Shown one piece after another: positions 35,607 to 42,174 of a stretch of DNA of 48,548 bases. The position numbers and the translations under genes are program-made. The DNA is taken from IMG/VR virus record IMGVR_UViG_3300008116_006782, positions 1-48,548 of that record. One strand, 5' to 3'. The notes beneath the pieces were generated by a model, which saw only the letters and a program-made list of their open reading frames with translations, was not told the origin of the DNA and did no database searches. The stretch is from a virus. Within the stretch, counting starts at the first letter, position 1, and each line of letters starts with the position of its first letter.

Positions 35607-36536
35607 ATGGTTAATTCAATACTTGTCGGACTAGTGGATAGCGTACTGGGGAAAGGTTCTCCTACTGCGAGAGGTAACTATTCCTATAAATGTCCTTTCT
35701 GCGAACACCATAAAAAGAAATTAGAAATAAACATGGTTCCAACTGCTAAGGGAGAAAATCCATGGCATTGTTGGGTATGTGATGCTAAAGGTAAAACGCT
35801 AGTTGGTTTATTTAAGAAATTAAAGATTGATAAGGAAAAAATATTTGAACTTAGATCAACGTTAGGTTTTTCTGAAAAACGAAAAGATGAAGATGAAAAA
35901 GTTAAAGTAGAATTACCTAAAGAATTTATTCCTCTATACGAAGCTAAACCTACACCTCACGCTAAACAAGCTGTTGCTTACCTTAAGAAAAGAGGAATTA
36001 AAAAAGAAGATATTATTAAATATAATATTGGGTATTGTGAATCAGGACGCTACGAAAATATGGTTATCATTCCTTCATACAATGAAAATGGTACACTAGA
36101 ATATTTTGTAGGACGTAGTTTTGAAAAAGACCCAAGACGAAAATTTGATGCTCCCACAGCAAGTAAAAACATTATTGGTTTTGAAAACTTAATTAATTGG
36201 AATGTTCCAGTTATTTTATGTGAAGGAGCGTTTGATGCTGTTACTGTTAAAAGAAATGCTATTCCGTTATTTGGTAAGATTGTTTCTAAAAAATTAATGC
36301 AAAAGATCGTTACCAATGACGTCAAAAAAGTCTATATCGCTTTAGATAAAGACGCTATAAAAGACACTCTCAAATTATCCGAGAAAATAATGAACTCGGG
36401 AAAAGAAGTTTATATAGTAGAAATGGACGATAAAGATCCTAGTGAAATGGGATTCGAACACTTTACTAATTTGGTACAAACATCAGTACCGCTTACTTTC
36501 TCATCGTTCTTTTCTCTCAAATTAAACCAAGCATGA
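35607..36536 (+). CDS. 61: DNA primase, DnaG/gp61-like
   Basis: 309 residues. An N-terminal zinc module has CPFC (Cys29/Cys32) and HCWVC (Cys55/Cys58), matching CHC2-type primase zinc ribbons. A Toprim core follows: CEGAFDA (Glu206-Gly207) and YIALDKDA with Asp247 and Asp249. This is the short phage form without a helicase-binding domain. It makes RNA primers for lagging-strand synthesis. The start lies 23 nt after the GIY-YIG gene. A possible promoter (TTG at 35573, TATATT at 35595) has a 22-nt rather than 23-nt distance. It overlaps the nuclease gene by 4 nt. Confidence 0.88.
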   Translation: MVNSILVGLVDSVLGKGSPTARGNYSYKCPFCEHHKKKLEINMVPTAKGENPWHCWVCDAKGKTLVGLFKKLKIDKEKIFELRSTLGFSEKRKDEDEKVKVELPKEFIPLYEAKPTPHAKQAVAYLKKRGIKKEDIIKYNIGYCESGRYENMVIIPSYNENGTLEYFVGRSFEKDPRRKFDAPTASKNIIGFENLINWNVPVILCEGAFDAVTVKRNAIPLFGKIVSKKLMQKIVTNDVKKVYIALDKDAIKDTLKLSEKIMNSGKEVYIVEMDDKDPSEMGFEHFTNLVQTSVPLTFSSFFSLKLNQA

Positions 36537-37315
36537 TAGAAAAAAACTCAAATATTATTCATGATCCTAAAATTAAAAGGATTGTTGAATACACAGAGGA
36601 CAACAAGCAAGTAAATGTATTAGACCAACGTTTTTACAGACGTAATGGAAAATACTACCCTTCAGTAACCTCAATCTTAAATTATTTTCCTAAAAATCAA
36701 TTTTTTCATAATTGGCTTAAAGATGTAGGTCATAACAGCGAAATTATTGCTAACAAAGCAGCTACTGAAGGTACTACAGTACACAACGCAGTAGAATGGT
36801 TTTTATTAGGTAACGAATTAAATTGGATTAATGAAGATGGAACAGCAAGATTTAGTCTTGAAGCATGGAAAATGATTCTGCGTTTTGCTGAATTTTGGAA
36901 TGAATACAAACCAGAATTAGTAACAACAGAATATCATTTATTCTCAGACGAACATTGCTATGCAGGAACAACAGACATTATCTGTCGTTTCCAAGACAAG
37001 TTATGGTTATTAGATATTAAAACATCTAATTCATTACACACATCGTATAATCTTCAGTTAGCCGCTTATGCTAAAGCATGGACAGAAACACATAACGAAA
37101 AGATTGATGAAACCGGTATTTTATGGTTAAAAGCATCCACTAGAGGCGCTTCTAAGGATAAAATCCAAGGAAATGGCTGGCAGCTCAAAAACTGTGGAGA
37201 CATTGAAAATAATTTCAAAATGTTTTTAAGTATATACGACATTTATAAACTAGAAAATCCTGATTCAAAACCTATGACGGAGTCATTACCAACAACAATC
37301 AAATTACTAGCATAA
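36533..37315 (+). CDS. PD-(D/E)XK nuclease (RecB/Cas4-like exonuclease)
   Basis: 260 residues. The core reads GTTVHNAVEWF (80-90, with His84), YAGTTDII (143-150, with catalytic Asp148), LLDIKTS (159-165, the D-x-K motif with Asp161 and Lys163), and QLAAYAKAW (175-183, motif QxxxY). This is the RecB-family nuclease layout. The phage enzyme could degrade host DNA or process ends in recombination. The 4-nt overlap with the primase points to replication. The operon ends here; a 125-nt gap with the receptor's promoter follows. Confidence 0.87.
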   Translation: MIEKNSNIIHDPKIKRIVEYTEDNKQVNVLDQRFYRRNGKYYPSVTSILNYFPKNQFFHNWLKDVGHNSEIIANKAATEGTTVHNAVEWFLLGNELNWINEDGTARFSLEAWKMILRFAEFWNEYKPELVTTEYHLFSDEHCYAGTTDIICRFQDKLWLLDIKTSNSLHTSYNLQLAAYAKAWTETHNEKIDETGILWLKASTRGASKDKIQGNGWQLKNCGDIENNFKMFLSIYDIYKLENPDSKPMTESLPTTIKLLA

Positions 37316-37325
37316 TATATTTATG
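37316..37325 (+). promoter_or_regulatory. ATATTTAT element after the nuclease gene
   Basis: TATATTTATG immediately after the stop codon of the nuclease gene, 115 nt before the receptor gene. It may be a late promoter for the receptor in addition to P7. Confidence 0.35.
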
Positions 37326-37345
37326 CTTGAATTTAAAAAGTTTAC

Positions 37346-37380
37346 TTTGTTACGATATTATTATATAGGTATATTTTTCT
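37346..37380 (+). promoter_or_regulatory. Bacteroidota-type promoter P7 of the TonB-dependent receptor
   Basis: TTTG at 37346-37349 (TTG at 37347) and TATATTTTTC at 37370, again exactly 23 nt apart. The predicted start point is around 37380-37386, just before the stem-loop at 37394. Confidence 0.6.
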
Positions 37381-37393
37381 ATATTCAACTCTT

Positions 37394-37420
37394 TAGCGGG
37401 GCCATACACCCCGCTATTTT
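37394..37420 (+). terminator. Stem-loop with short T-tract in the receptor leader
   Basis: TAGCGGGG (37394-37401) pairs perfectly with CCCCGCTA (37409-37416) across a 7-nt loop, followed by TTTT. It could end read-through from the nuclease operon. It lies downstream of promoter P7 and 20 nt before the receptor ATG, so on the P7 transcript it would be a 5'-end hairpin, either stabilising the RNA or attenuating expression. Confidence 0.65.
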
Positions 37421-37439
37421 AATCTAAAAACAAACAAGT

Positions 37440-39956
37440 ATGAAAAAAACAAAACTTTTATTCGCGGCGCTATTGCTATCCGTAGCATCTTTCGCCCAAA
37501 TCAAAGGAAAAGTTGTGGATGCGTCCACAAAAGAGGTTTTAGTTGGAGCAACTGTTAACAATGTATTAACAGCACTTGATGGATCTTTTAATTTAAAAAC
37601 TGCTAAGGCAGGAGATAAAATAAAAGTATCTTTTACTGGTTTTAAAACTATGGAAGTTGAGGCAAAGGATGCCATGGTTGTTGAATTACAACCCACTTCG
37701 ATTGGCTTAGCAGAAGTTAGCGTTATTGCTTCTGTAGCTAGAGACAGGAAAACTCCTGTCGCTGCTTCAACTGTTAAAGCAAAACAGATTGAAGAAACTT
37801 ATGGTGGTTCAGCTGAATTACCTGAAGTATTAAAAGTAACCCCTGGTGTTTATGCTACTAAAACAGGAGGTGGTGTTGGTGATTCTCGTATCAACATTCG
37901 TGGTTTTGACCAACGTAACGTAGCAGTAATGATCAACGGTATTCCTGTTAATGACATGGAAAACGGTTGGGTTTACTGGTCTAACTGGGCTGGTTTAGGT
38001 GATGCTGTATCACAAATTCAAGTACAACGTGGTTTAGGTGCTTCTAAAATCGCTGTAAACTCAGTTGGTGGTACAATGAACATCATTACTAAATCAACTG
38101 ATGTAAAAGCAGGAGGTTCAGTTCAGTATCAAACTACAGACTATGGTCAACAAAAAGTTACAGTTTATGGTTCAACTGGCTTATCTAAAAAAGGATGGGC
38201 TTTCACTTCAGTATTTTCTCGTACATGGGGTGATTCTTATGTTAATGGAACTTGGATGGATGGTTATTCTTATTTCTTAAGTTTAACTAAACAATTAGGT
38301 GATAAACATAAGTTAGTATTAACTGGTATTGGTGCTCCTCAACAACATGGACAACGCAGTTCTGGTTTAACTCAAGCTCAACTTGATAAGTTTGGTCGTA
38401 AGTTTAATACTGATATTGGATATTATTCTAATGGTGATTTATTTAATGAGCGTGTTAACTACTATCACAAACCACAATTTGCTTTAAATCACTATTGGGA
38501 TATTAGCTCCAAAACACAATTAAATACCTCAGTTTATTACTCAATTGGACATGGTGGTGGATCAGGCCGTTTAGGTTCTTCTTGGTTTAGAACTGCTGAT
38601 GGTTTGATTGATATTCAAAGAGTATATGATTATAACGTAGCAAACCCTGCTATTTCTAATGGTGGTGTTAGATATGCTAATCGTAACTCAGTAAACAACC
38701 ATTATTGGGCTGGTGCTTTATCAACATTAAATCACAAATTAAATAAGAATATTGATTTAGTACTTGGTGTTGATGCTCGTTCATATAAAGGAGAACACTT
38801 CCGTGAGGCCTCCAATTTAGTAGGTGGTACTCAATATAAAGATGCTACTAATGGTTTAGTAGGTGTTCACCCATATGCTTCTGACTTTACAAACCCATTC
38901 AAAGTAGTACCTGAAAACCAACGTGTTGCTTATGACAACGATGGTTTAGTTAAATACTTAGGTGGATTTGGTCAGATTGAATATTCTAAAGATAAATTAT
39001 CAGTATTTTTAACGGGTGCTATTAACACAACTTCCAACCAAAGAATTGAGCGTTTCCTTTACAGAACTTCTACTACAAGAGGTCCTGAATCTGAAATTGT
39101 AAATATCTTAGGTGGATCTGGTAAGTTAGGTGCTAATTATAATATCGATGAAAAGCATAACGTTTATGCTAACGTAGGTTTATTTAGTCGTGCTCCTTTC
39201 TTCTCATTTGTATTTGTTAACAACACAAACGATGTTGTACAAAATTTAGTAAATGAAAAAGCACAATCATTTGAATTTGGATATGGATTTAAAGTAAAGA
39301 AAGTTGCTTTAAAATTAAACGCATATCACACTACTTGGAAGGACAAATCATTACTTTCAGGTAACTTAACAGGACCAAATGGTACTATCACTCGCGCATT
39401 AATGAGCGGTGCTAATGCTGTTCACCAAGGTTTAGAATTAGAATTTAATACTAAATTCACTAAGAAATTAGATTTAGGTGGTATTGTTTCTATTGGTGAT
39501 TGGAAATGGAAAGGTGATATTAACGCAACAGTATATTCTGAAATTGATCCAACACAACAAGTTACTGTTAAATCTTATGTTGATGGTGTACACGTAGGTG
39601 ATGCTCCTCAAAACCAATTTGGTTTACAAGGTCGCTACCAAGTAACTAAAAATCTTTGGATTGGTAGTACTTACACTCACAACAGTAAGTTTTATGCTAA
39701 CTTCGATCCAGCTTCTAAAACAACAGCTGCTAGTAAGATTGATTCTTGGAAAATGCCAAACTACGGACAATTAGATGGCCGTATTGGATATGATTTGAAA
39801 GTTAAAAAACAATCAGTATCATTAATTATTCAAGGATTTAATTTAACTAATGAATTGTTCTGGAGTGATGCTCAAGACAATGGTGCTGCTGCTATGGCTT
39901 ATGGTTTCCCAGGATTTGGTAGAAACTTTAACTTTAGCGCTAAGGTTAGATTCTAA
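37440..39956 (+). CDS. Full-length TonB-dependent outer-membrane receptor
   Basis: 838 residues, complete. Residues 1-20 are a signal peptide (MKKTKLLFAALLLSVASFA). About 21-90 form a carboxypeptidase-regulatory-like domain (IKGKVVDASTKEVLVGATV), an N-terminal extension typical of Bacteroidota receptors. About 95-220 are the plug (ELPEVLKVTPGVYATK, SRINIRGFDQRNVAVMING, VQRGLGASKIAVNSVGGTMN). 221-838 are the beta-barrel, ending FNFSAKVRF with the C-terminal Phe needed for outer-membrane insertion. Such receptors import siderophores, vitamins or glycans with TonB energy. No TonB, SusD-like or enzyme gene is nearby. Arginine is mostly CGT here, while the fibre genes favour AGA, hinting at host origin. 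It has its own promoter and terminator. Confidence 0.93.
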   Translation: MKKTKLLFAALLLSVASFAQIKGKVVDASTKEVLVGATVNNVLTALDGSFNLKTAKAGDKIKVSFTGFKTMEVEAKDAMVVELQPTSIGLAEVSVIASVARDRKTPVAASTVKAKQIEETYGGSAELPEVLKVTPGVYATKTGGGVGDSRINIRGFDQRNVAVMINGIPVNDMENGWVYWSNWAGLGDAVSQIQVQRGLGASKIAVNSVGGTMNIITKSTDVKAGGSVQYQTTDYGQQKVTVYGSTGLSKKGWAFTSVFSRTWGDSYVNGTWMDGYSYFLSLTKQLGDKHKLVLTGIGAPQQHGQRSSGLTQAQLDKFGRKFNTDIGYYSNGDLFNERVNYYHKPQFALNHYWDISSKTQLNTSVYYSIGHGGGSGRLGSSWFRTADGLIDIQRVYDYNVANPAISNGGVRYANRNSVNNHYWAGALSTLNHKLNKNIDLVLGVDARSYKGEHFREASNLVGGTQYKDATNGLVGVHPYASDFTNPFKVVPENQRVAYDNDGLVKYLGGFGQIEYSKDKLSVFLTGAINTTSNQRIERFLYRTSTTRGPESEIVNILGGSGKLGANYNIDEKHNVYANVGLFSRAPFFSFVFVNNTNDVVQNLVNEKAQSFEFGYGFKVKKVALKLNAYHTTWKDKSLLSGNLTGPNGTITRALMSGANAVHQGLELEFNTKFTKKLDLGGIVSIGDWKWKGDINATVYSEIDPTQQVTVKSYVDGVHVGDAPQNQFGLQGRYQVTKNLWIGSTYTHNSKFYANFDPASKTTAASKIDSWKMPNYGQLDGRIGYDLKVKKQSVSLIIQGFNLTNELFWSDAQDNGAAAMAYGFPGFGRNFNFSAKVRF

Positions 39957-39973
39957 TAGACATTACATAGTTT

Positions 39974-39983
39974 AATATTTATT
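39974..39983 (+). promoter_or_regulatory. ATATTTAT element beside the receptor terminator
   Basis: The 8-mer at 39975-39982 touches the 5' arm of the terminator. As a promoter it would transcribe through that hairpin into the kinase gene at 40032. Confidence 0.3.
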
Positions 39984-40019
39984 GGCGATTCCTCTTGGGG
40001 GATCGCCAATTTTTATTTA
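39981..40019 (+). terminator. Strong intrinsic terminator after the receptor gene
   Basis: ATTGGCGATTCC (39981-39992) pairs with GGGATCGCCAAT (39999-40010) with one wobble, followed by TTTTTATTTATTTTT. It isolates the receptor from the following operon. Confidence 0.9.
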
Positions 40020-40031
40020 TTTTTATACGTC

Positions 40032-40772
40032 ATGAAATTAAAAGTATTAAAGGAAGCGCCAAAAGATTTAAAAGCAGTGTTGATTGCTGGTCCATCTAAC
40101 GTGGGTAAGTCAACATTCGTTAAATCTGTTATTCCTACCGAATACCAAAAATATGTGTTAAATCCTGATAAATTCTATGAACCCGAATTAGCCAAAATTG
40201 GTGGTGGTTCAATGAATATGAAGGACTTTTCCCCTGAGCAATTATCAGCAGCAGCAAAAGCACAAGCAGTAGCTGTAAAACAATATAGATCTGAATTAGA
40301 AAAAGCAATTGGTACAAAACCAGTTATTTTAGATATTACAGGTGGTAGCTTTAAAAAGGTAAAGGAAACAAAGGAAAAACTAGAAAAACAAGGTTATGAT
40401 GTAATGATGGTTTTATTATATGCTTCACCATATACTACTTTATCTCGCAATATGAGTAGAGACAGATCACTGGATCCAGGTATTGTAATTAGAAACTGGG
40501 AAGATGTAATTAAAAATGTTGATTTATATTCACAACTATTTGATGCTGATCATTTTGCTTTAGTAGATAATGATCCTCAAGGTGCTAATAAAAGCTTTAA
40601 CCTAGAAGATGTAGAATCATTATTTGAAAAATCTAAAATCTGGAAAGACATACCAGATGAGGATAGGAAAAAAATTGAGGCACGTATTCAAACACTTATT
40701 GACAAAACTGAAGATGCTAACTTTGTGGCATTTGATGAATTAGCAACTAAATTAAAAGGATTTCTTAAGTAA
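40032..40772 (+). CDS. Zeta-toxin/polynucleotide-kinase-like P-loop kinase with capsid-targeting-like N-terminus
   Basis: 246 residues. Walker A GPSNVGKST is at 20-28, followed by the helix and a KPVILDITGG strand (about 95-104). VMMVLLYASPYTTLSRNMSRD (around 120-140) has the arginine pair of the zeta-type lid. The C-terminal 60 residues are helical. The N-terminus MKLKVLKE, then A, has the L-x-E form of a T4 capsid-targeting peptide. Kinases of this class phosphorylate nucleotide sugars, nucleotides or polynucleotide ends. No antitoxin is nearby. It overlaps the next gene by one base. Confidence 0.75.
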   Translation: MKLKVLKEAPKDLKAVLIAGPSNVGKSTFVKSVIPTEYQKYVLNPDKFYEPELAKIGGGSMNMKDFSPEQLSAAAKAQAVAVKQYRSELEKAIGTKPVILDITGGSFKKVKETKEKLEKQGYDVMMVLLYASPYTTLSRNMSRDRSLDPGIVIRNWEDVIKNVDLYSQLFDADHFALVDNDPQGANKSFNLEDVESLFEKSKIWKDIPDEDRKKIEARIQTLIDKTEDANFVAFDELATKLKGFLK

Positions 40773-41662
40773 TGCCACAGATTTATCTTGATATGGATGG
40801 TTTATTAGTAGACTATGAAGGTGGTTTAAAAAATACTGCTAAAGAATTAGGTGTATCTGAAGATGATGGTAAAGCTATTTGGAATAAAATTAATAGTAAT
40901 CCTGAGGAATGGTGGTCTAACCTAAAACCAATTCCTGAAGGAATGAAAATATTTAACGCTGTTAAAGATAAAGAACCATCAATATTATCAGCAGCAGGAA
41001 CAAATGAACGAACAAAACAAGGTAAACTTGAATGGCTAAAAAAGAATGGTTTATCTCCTTACCTTAAAGAAATTATATTTGTTAATAACAAATCAGCAAA
41101 AAAGAAATACGCTAAGGGAGGTAATATTTTAATTGATGATCGTCCCGATAATGTGGCTGATTGGGAAATGGAAGGTGGAACATCGTATTTGTTTCAAAAT
41201 AATGCTAATCAAATTATTAAGCAGTTAGGTATGTTAAAAGAAAATTATTGGAAAAACTATTTAAATAAAAAACGTTTACAAGAAAACATTATAAAGGAAT
41301 ACACACCTGATTTCTTTCACACTATGAAAGATTTTGTTAATTTTGCATCGAATGAACTTCAATTAAAAGATGTTCCTAAAGTACATGTTATTAATTCTCC
41401 TAATTTTACTCAACAATTTAAAAGTTTTGGTGGATACCAACCAATGCAAAACAAAATTGCTATAGTAATTAAAGGAAGAGGTTTAGCTGACATATTAAGA
41501 ACATTAGCTCATGAACTTGTCCACGCACAACAGATGCAACTTAATAAACTTGACGTATCTTCGGGTGAAACTGGATCACCTGTAGAAAATGAAGCAAACG
41601 CTTTAGCAGGTGTATTAATGAGAAATTATGGACAGAAAAACCCAATGATATTTGAGTTATGA
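40772..41662 (+). CDS. HAD phosphatase fused to a putative zinc metallopeptidase
   Basis: 296 residues. The N-terminal domain (1-155) is a HAD-type phosphatase of the 5'(3')-deoxyribonucleotidase kind: LDMDGLLVDYE (Asp7, Asp9), ILSAAGT (motif II), and NILIDDRPDN (118-127, motif IV). The C-terminal domain (about 180-296) has HELVH (247-251), with a possible third ligand in ENEANALAG (Glu274), the shape of a small zincin. The joint enzyme is unusual. It lies between a kinase and a second HAD gene and overlaps both. I see no frameshift, so the fusion is genuine. Confidence 0.78.
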   Translation: MPQIYLDMDGLLVDYEGGLKNTAKELGVSEDDGKAIWNKINSNPEEWWSNLKPIPEGMKIFNAVKDKEPSILSAAGTNERTKQGKLEWLKKNGLSPYLKEIIFVNNKSAKKKYAKGGNILIDDRPDNVADWEMEGGTSYLFQNNANQIIKQLGMLKENYWKNYLNKKRLQENIIKEYTPDFFHTMKDFVNFASNELQLKDVPKVHVINSPNFTQQFKSFGGYQPMQNKIAIVIKGRGLADILRTLAHELVHAQQMQLNKLDVSSGETGSPVENEANALAGVLMRNYGQKNPMIFEL

Positions 41663-42174
41663 TAAGTTTAAAAAATATATTAGAAGTAGAAGGTATTACC
41701 CCCTATCAAATTTATTGTGATATGGATGGTGTTATAGCTGATTTTGAAGCACGTTTTGACCATTTCTTTGGAATGTCTCCAAGTGAATATGAAGCCCAAC
41801 ATGGTAAAAGAGCATTTTGGAATCAAATCGATAACAACATAGGTGTTAAATTCTGGGTTGGTATTCCTTGGATGCCAGATGGACATCAACTTTGGGATTA
41901 TATTAAAAAATATAATCCAATCTTATTATCTTCCCCTTCTACCTCAGAATCAAGCCGTTTAGGTAAACGTTTGTGGGTTAAAAAATACCTACCGGGAACT
42001 AAATTAATTTTAGCTTCTCCTGAACGTAAAGCAGAACAATCTGGTGAGGGAAAAATATTAATTGATGATAGATTTGAACCAAATATCCGCATGTGGAGAG
42101 AAAAAGGTGGAATTGGTATTCATCATACAAGTGCTGCTGACACTATTAAACAGCTTAAAGAATTAGGTTTATGA
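41659..42174 (+). CDS. HAD-family 5'-nucleotidase-like phosphatase with capsid-targeting-like N-terminus
   Basis: 171 residues. CDMDGVIADFE (20-30) gives the nucleophile pair Asp21/Asp23, ILLSSPST motif II, and KILIDDRFEPN motif IV. It is a paralogue of the N-terminal domain of the preceding protein. A 15-residue extension (MISLKNILE, then V) precedes the fold and matches the [LI]-x-E rule for T4 head targeting. It would remove phosphate from (deoxy)nucleoside monophosphates. The 4-nt overlap on both sides suggests coupled translation. Confidence 0.82.
   Translation: MISLKNILEVEGITPYQIYCDMDGVIADFEARFDHFFGMSPSEYEAQHGKRAFWNQIDNNIGVKFWVGIPWMPDGHQLWDYIKKYNPILLSSPSTSESSRLGKRLWVKKYLPGTKLILASPERKAEQSGEGKILIDDRFEPNIRMWREKGGIGIHHTSAADTIKQLKELGL

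Follow-up and report, generated by a model that had tools for sequence, protein, structure and literature searches.

Why would a phage carry a complete outer-membrane receptor of host type, and how did it come by one? The window, by which we mean the whole 48.5-kb virus record analysed here, holds an intact gene for a TonB-dependent receptor (TBDR). Phage genes stand on both sides of it and the site is empty in relatives, so that this host-type gene lies within a genuine phage genome, which elsewhere encodes baseplate wedge proteins, a GIY-YIG endonuclease, primase-like and exonuclease proteins and an endolysin. Known phage genes for nutrient uptake act mostly in the periplasm or cytoplasm; T4-like cyanophages, for example, carry the phosphorus-acquisition auxiliary genes pstS and phoA. 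These resemble the gene of the window as phage-borne cargo for (in our case, putative) nutrient uptake, and differ from it in encoding a periplasmic binding protein and a phosphatase rather than an outer-membrane transporter, and in having cyanobacterial hosts.

The receptor and its site of insertion

The reading frame runs through 838 amino acids without frameshift or internal stop, and the parts of a complete receptor listed in an earlier sequence-only reading of this DNA are in place (Table 1). Direct reading gives a signal-peptide-like N-terminus (MKKTKLLFAALLLSVASFA, then Q) and the C-terminal residues ...KVRF, ending in Phe; Pfam gives a PF13715 CarbopepD_reg_2 match at residues 21-95 (E 5e-8) and a PF07715 Plug match at residues 103-212 (E 4.4e-15; 56.5 bits versus a cut-off of 23.9). 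In an AlphaFold model built on a 46-sequence alignment (mean pLDDT 83.6, pTM 0.82) the CTD, plug and barrel are visible. The barrel claimed earlier, of 22-strand size, is consistent with the modelled one and its C-terminal aromatic residue, as a type rather than as an individual count of strands. The plug is the best conserved region of the alignment (mean conservation 0.79). Directly before it stands LAEVSVIAS, opposite which most of the 45 aligned relatives, phage and cellular, have a similar motif, and residues 89-102 would by their position be TonB-box-like. Such a protein is predicted to be exported to the outer membrane and coupled to TonB.

Table 1. Features of the window at and around the receptor gene
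Feature	Coordinates	Strand	Evidence
PD-(D/E)XK-type phage exonuclease, left edge of cargo site	36533..37315	+	phrog_298, E 2e-39
Inserted stretch, not in sister phages	37316..39968 (boundaries approximate)	+	Empty sites in L222, L223, L224, L225, L242
G+C-rich hairpin then T-run, within inserted stretch	37394..37416 (approximate)	+	Sequence
TBDR gene, 838 aa	37440..39956	+	ORF, Pfam, AlphaFold, Foldseek
Signal-peptide-like N-terminus, residues 1-19, MKKTKLLFAALLLSVASFA	37440..37496	+	Direct reading; model helix 2-16
CarbopepD_reg_2 domain, residues 21-95	37500..37724	+	Pfam; absent from the 70-72% cellular relatives
TonB-box-like linker, residues 89-102, with LAEVSVIAS	37704..37745	+	Positional assignment, 46-member alignment
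Plug domain, residues 103-217	37746..38090	+	Pfam PF07715 on 103-212; conservation
Beta-barrel, residues 218-838, terminal Phe	38091..39953	+	AlphaFold model, Foldseek
Resident phage terminator-like hairpin, common to empty sites	39973..40017	+	Comparison with relatives
AAA_33/zeta-toxin-like kinase, right edge of cargo site	40032..40772	+	Pfam match below cut-off; phrog search

The best PDB matches of the model found with Foldseek are all TBDRs: PqqU/YncD (TMt 0.82), Fiu, FhuA and FecA, with E-values down to 8e-42. The FhuA-pb5 (8a8c) and FhuA-Llp (8a60) complexes are among the fold matches, and the only full TBDR to match well among predicted viral structures is a SusC of an uncultured marine phage. 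Searching the solved structures by sequence gave only plug-level matches (a siderophore receptor and the colicin I receptor) and a fragment of a SusC homologue. Membership of a known curated subfamily was rejected, every NCBIfam match (BtuB, FepA, haem, SusC/RagA) falling far below its cut-off, the best with 52.9 bits versus 323.75. Neither fold nor sequence comparison indicated a substrate.

The placement of the gene between phage genes held up in phrog and Pfam searches: a primase-like gene (phrog_47) and the exonuclease gene (phrog_298) lie upstream, and the AAA_33/zeta-like kinase gene lies downstream. Related phage loci were collected by scanning with the exonuclease (52 loci) and with the kinase (7 loci). 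The close relatives L222/L242, L223, L224 and L225 share 91-93% identity with the window in the exonuclease and 90-98% in the kinase. Between these two genes they have only ∼75-80 bp, and the terminator-like hairpin found downstream of the window TBDR is present in these empty sites too. The TBDR is therefore a precise single-gene insertion, placed after the stop of the exonuclease gene and before a terminator already resident in the phage, not a gene with a terminator of its own as first supposed. A promoter of its own is at most putative. The hairpin upstream of the TBDR lies within the inserted stretch; an upstream terminator hairpin was rejected as a special feature of phage TBDRs, being no commoner before phage TBDRs (9/58) than before cellular ones (23/132). 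No cobalamin or other riboswitch was found by Rfam in the window or in eight related loci. Beyond the kinase gene, at 40772-42174, the window has two 5'-deoxynucleotidase-like genes in a row (NT5C PF06941; phrog_2643).

Origin of the gene and its relatives in phages

The nearest cellular relatives, from four Flavobacteriales genomes of ∼2 Mb (L082-L085), are 70-72% identical over residues 89-838, that is, over plug and barrel; a genome search added two more at this level. Like the window copy they have no SusD; unlike it they are chromosomal and without the CarboxypepD domain, and they stand mostly beside polyphosphate kinase, whereas the window copy has that domain and occupies a phage cargo site. 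The main marine clade of phage TBDRs has separate cellular relatives, at 69-74%. A homologous receptor split into two ORFs, with an intact paralogue beside it, was observed in Winogradskyella vidalii (L126:982-6586).

That the gene is transferred cargo, one of the options raised earlier, is supported by the empty sites and with these cellular relatives. Its G+C (35%) and codon usage are nearer to those of the phage than to those of the sampled hosts, which points either to a low-G+C donor outside the sampled hosts or to adaptation of the gene. Repeated exchange between cells and phages is seen in both trees made, where the phage copies fall into the window, L002, a marine clade and an L058/L078 clade. 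With 153 sequences, the FastTree tree calls for six phage/cell changes, and well-supported branches force five of them; a mixture-model tree of 40 sequences needs four, all forced by starred branches. On these sequences the history would include at least four such changes, in directions that the tree does not give; the window and L002 TBDRs, for instance, could reflect one gain and one transfer back.

Two rival accounts of the insertion can be weighed here. The sequence-only reading had linked assembly error or recent chance capture to relatives lacking the gene together with near-identity to one host gene: such relatives exist, but the host match is only 70-72% in protein, and with the phage-like codon usage this favours neither a chimera nor a recent transfer out of the hosts that were sampled. 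An assembly chimera of phage and host DNA, to which the singleton nature of the insertion might point, is highly improbable, as a single gene fills the space from the end of the exonuclease gene to the phage terminator with no host neighbours (PPK1 etc.) carried along, and the nearest host gene has just 69-71% DNA identity. A passenger gene, captured by chance and of no benefit to the window phage, would fit its absence from all close relatives found and the lack of a second phage contig with a near-identical copy; we consider it very unlikely, given the intact frame, a codon usage at a distance of 0.087 from phage genes versus 0.10-0.13 from host TBDRs, and the fact that other phages have gained such genes repeatedly and keep them under purifying selection.

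The gene is not the isolated case that it had seemed, similar TBDR genes occurring widely in contigs of uncultured phages. Relatives are encoded on 404 IMG/VR stretches, of which the best 80 were kept and examined. These contigs are fragments, and some of the others could be cellular contamination. Among the best 80 of the 404 most copies are full length. The median dN/dS over 334 pairs of phage copies is 0.163 (range 0.024-0.445), and the TBDR is therefore under purifying selection among phages.

Most TBDR loci inspected sit in regions of T4-type replication functions, with genes for DNA polymerase (phrog_262), a clamp-like protein, the clamp loader (phrog_168), replicative helicase, ribonucleotide reductase and ThyX. 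A clamp loader homologue is present in 38 of these best 80 loci; conversely, 24 of 34 marine contigs that have an L011-like clamp loader and enough flank carry a TBDR, on either side of the clamp loader. The L002 TBDR (52% identity) lies between the ThyX region and HPRT-, FolE- and DNA-polymerase-type genes. Nucleotide supply is represented near phage TBDRs by IMP dehydrogenase-, HPRT-, ThyX-, ribonucleotide reductase- and deoxynucleotidase-like genes (IMP dehydrogenase and HPRT recognised by eye). In marine T4-like phages, GroEL-, GroES- and IMP dehydrogenase-like genes apparently precede the TBDR, again by eye (L011:699-5957, L012, L005). Two other contigs (L002:439-2485, L081:362-2408) have by eye a queC/queD/queE-like set, with a FolE-like gene further on; the set suggests 7-deazaguanine DNA modification.

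Gene neighbourhoods and the putative cargo

Secreted-type nucleases recur beside phage TBDRs. In the best 80 of the 404, an S1/P1 nuclease is downstream in 17 loci and a DNA/RNA non-specific endonuclease directly upstream in 5; the reverse scan with S1/P1 nuclease found a TBDR in 8 of 11 loci, two of the remaining three being cut by the contig end upstream. No secreted nuclease or phosphatase was seen adjoining the TBDR of the window, whose contig is a fragment.

The cellular relatives have neighbours of a similar kind. Polyphosphate kinase (PPK1) follows most of those at 70-72%, and NPP phosphodiesterase, PhoD, endonuclease I or an EEP (exo/endonuclease/phosphatase) nuclease is often near the more distant ones. 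Phosphorus or nucleic-acid neighbours occur in 28 of 72 dereplicated cellular loci versus 3 of 80 random 8-kb Flavobacteriales windows (Fisher p 4e-8), a value that is optimistic because the families were chosen after being seen and the loci are related by descent, and that takes random windows, not other TBDRs, as its control; the flanks of the other 44 loci have none of these families. A lipoprotein-like protein follows 3' of most of 46 of 80 cellular receptors (L100:6551-8212 and 45 other loci); it is possibly a partner of the cellular receptors, and its L130 copy has no Pfam match.

Published experiments offer an independent parallel. In Flavobacterium johnsoniae, phosphate depletion induces TBDTs together with extracellular (EndA) nucleases, a PPK-like gene and PlcP (PMC8115612); these TBDTs/PUS systems share PF07715 and PF13715 with the window protein, a likeness by domains only, and are cellular. 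In Riemerella anatipestifer, both TonB and an outer-membrane protein linked to it influence natural transformation, a hint at a role in DNA entry in Flavobacteriales (PMC8459023, PMC8383284); those TonB-linked proteins, needed for transformation, are likened to ours by description, are of SusC/RagA type and have a transport role by their authors' proposal.

Sister phages use the site of the window TBDR, the position after the exonuclease gene, for other outer-membrane or envelope-related genes. One contig (L243:6827-8005) encodes at this equivalent site a 392-aa Porin_O_P protein (PF07396, E 4e-24), a phage-borne phosphate-selective-type porin. Its support for a phosphorus reading is weak, because the OprP of the F. 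johnsoniae phoBR operon is not induced at low phosphate (PMC8115612). Two contigs (L250:6826-9786, L272:6404-9682) have there very large proteins with a CarboxypepD domain and an outer-membrane barrel, and four (L226, L227, L241, L246) have a GT2-type glycosyltransferase gene followed by one for a calcineurin-like metallophosphatase. This last pair is a conserved two-gene cassette of phage contigs (L226:6795-8236, L290-L369), for of 80 loci retrieved by a metallophosphatase search, 78 have the glycosyltransferase one or two ORFs upstream. The cassette may serve to remodel lipids or the envelope. Against LpxH, the metallophosphatase stays far short of the cut-off. Identity with the classical PlcP-Agt lipid-remodelling pair is at most possible: the phage enzyme matches a GT2-type profile and the known Agt is GT4 (PMC8231724).

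We propose that a host-type TonB-dependent importer has been captured repeatedly by T4-like Bacteroidota phages, which would keep it as auxiliary metabolic cargo. The window phage received it between the exonuclease gene and the terminator of that gene; in the infected cell the protein would be exported, placed in the outer membrane and powered by host TonB, and the nutrient brought in would aid phage replication. The likeliest cargo would be nucleic-acid fragments or nucleotides, or other organic phosphorus. We prefer import of these during infection because of the gene neighbourhoods in cells and phages, from which the substrate is read, and hold its chances to be about even. Nutrient uptake had been among the earlier suggestions and fits the neighbourhoods best, with nucleic acid or phosphorus indicated in place of the iron, vitamin or glycan then named.

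The same protein might instead serve superinfection exclusion or receptor exchange, by replacing, masking or decoying the surface receptor that this phage or its competitors use, with the loss of incoming phages. Phages commonly enter through FhuA and other TBDRs, which exclusion proteins also target (Cor: PMC11436027), FhuA bound to pb5 and to Llp is among the fold matches, and several different surface-related genes occupy the cargo site in sister phages. Exclusion nevertheless leaves unexplained the secreted-type nucleases by phage TBDRs and the phosphate and nuclease neighbours of the cellular homologues; a decoy needs no conserved TonB-box-like motif and plug, and an extra copy of a receptor adds adsorption sites rather than removing them. 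We judge exclusion unlikely, and give no better prospects to import into the infected cell of another nutrient (an iron complex, vitamin, glycan or peptide). The latter accords with the general role of TBDRs, with PQQ and siderophore receptors as the closest folds, and with the carbohydrate uptake proposed for a megaphage SusC (see below). Against it, the genes flanking the window TBDR (exonuclease and kinase) include no SusD-like lipoprotein gene and no SusD-like partner was recognised by eye in the other loci inspected, the Rfam searches gave no riboswitch, and the neighbours indicate nucleic acid or phosphorus.

A broader form of the preferred import reading, which we advance tentatively and at less than even confidence, is that uncultured T4-like Bacteroidota phages run their own scavenging: the captured TBDR, accompanied in many lineages by secreted nucleases, would draw nucleic acid from outside into the infected cell as a source of nucleotides and phosphorus for making phage DNA, and at one cargo site related phages would swap outer-membrane modules.

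Precedent and significance

Among open-licence full texts we found one precedent for a phage-encoded TBDR, a SusC-type protein of the marine megaphage Mar_Mega_1 and LR745206, which its authors, in the passages on it, interpret as an auxiliary metabolic gene (PMC9723777). It is like the window TBDR in lying on a phage genome, and unlike it in belonging to a megaphage of ∼650 kb, in its distant sequence (LR745206 versus P0001: a 31% match over a quarter of its length) and in the carbohydrate uptake proposed for it; those passages hold no analysis of gene neighbourhood or acquisition. For repeated acquisition, T4-like distribution, an exchangeable site and a nuclease link, no published account was found in the same body of texts.

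If import is the true function, viruses would supply an energy-coupled outer-membrane importer, one that was gained on several independent occasions and is frequent within one marine lineage, and phages would remodel the host outer membrane for feeding. This would give a testable answer to where large phages in nutrient-poor waters obtain phosphorus and nucleotides, and a clue to the cargo of a large uncharacterised class of Bacteroidota TBDRs. Were exclusion the true function, it would be of a new type.

The window also has at its left end a dense cluster of ten tRNA genes (47-1060) on the minus strand, the main genes being on the other; nine were identified by ARAGORN and the tenth, at 988-1060, by Rfam.
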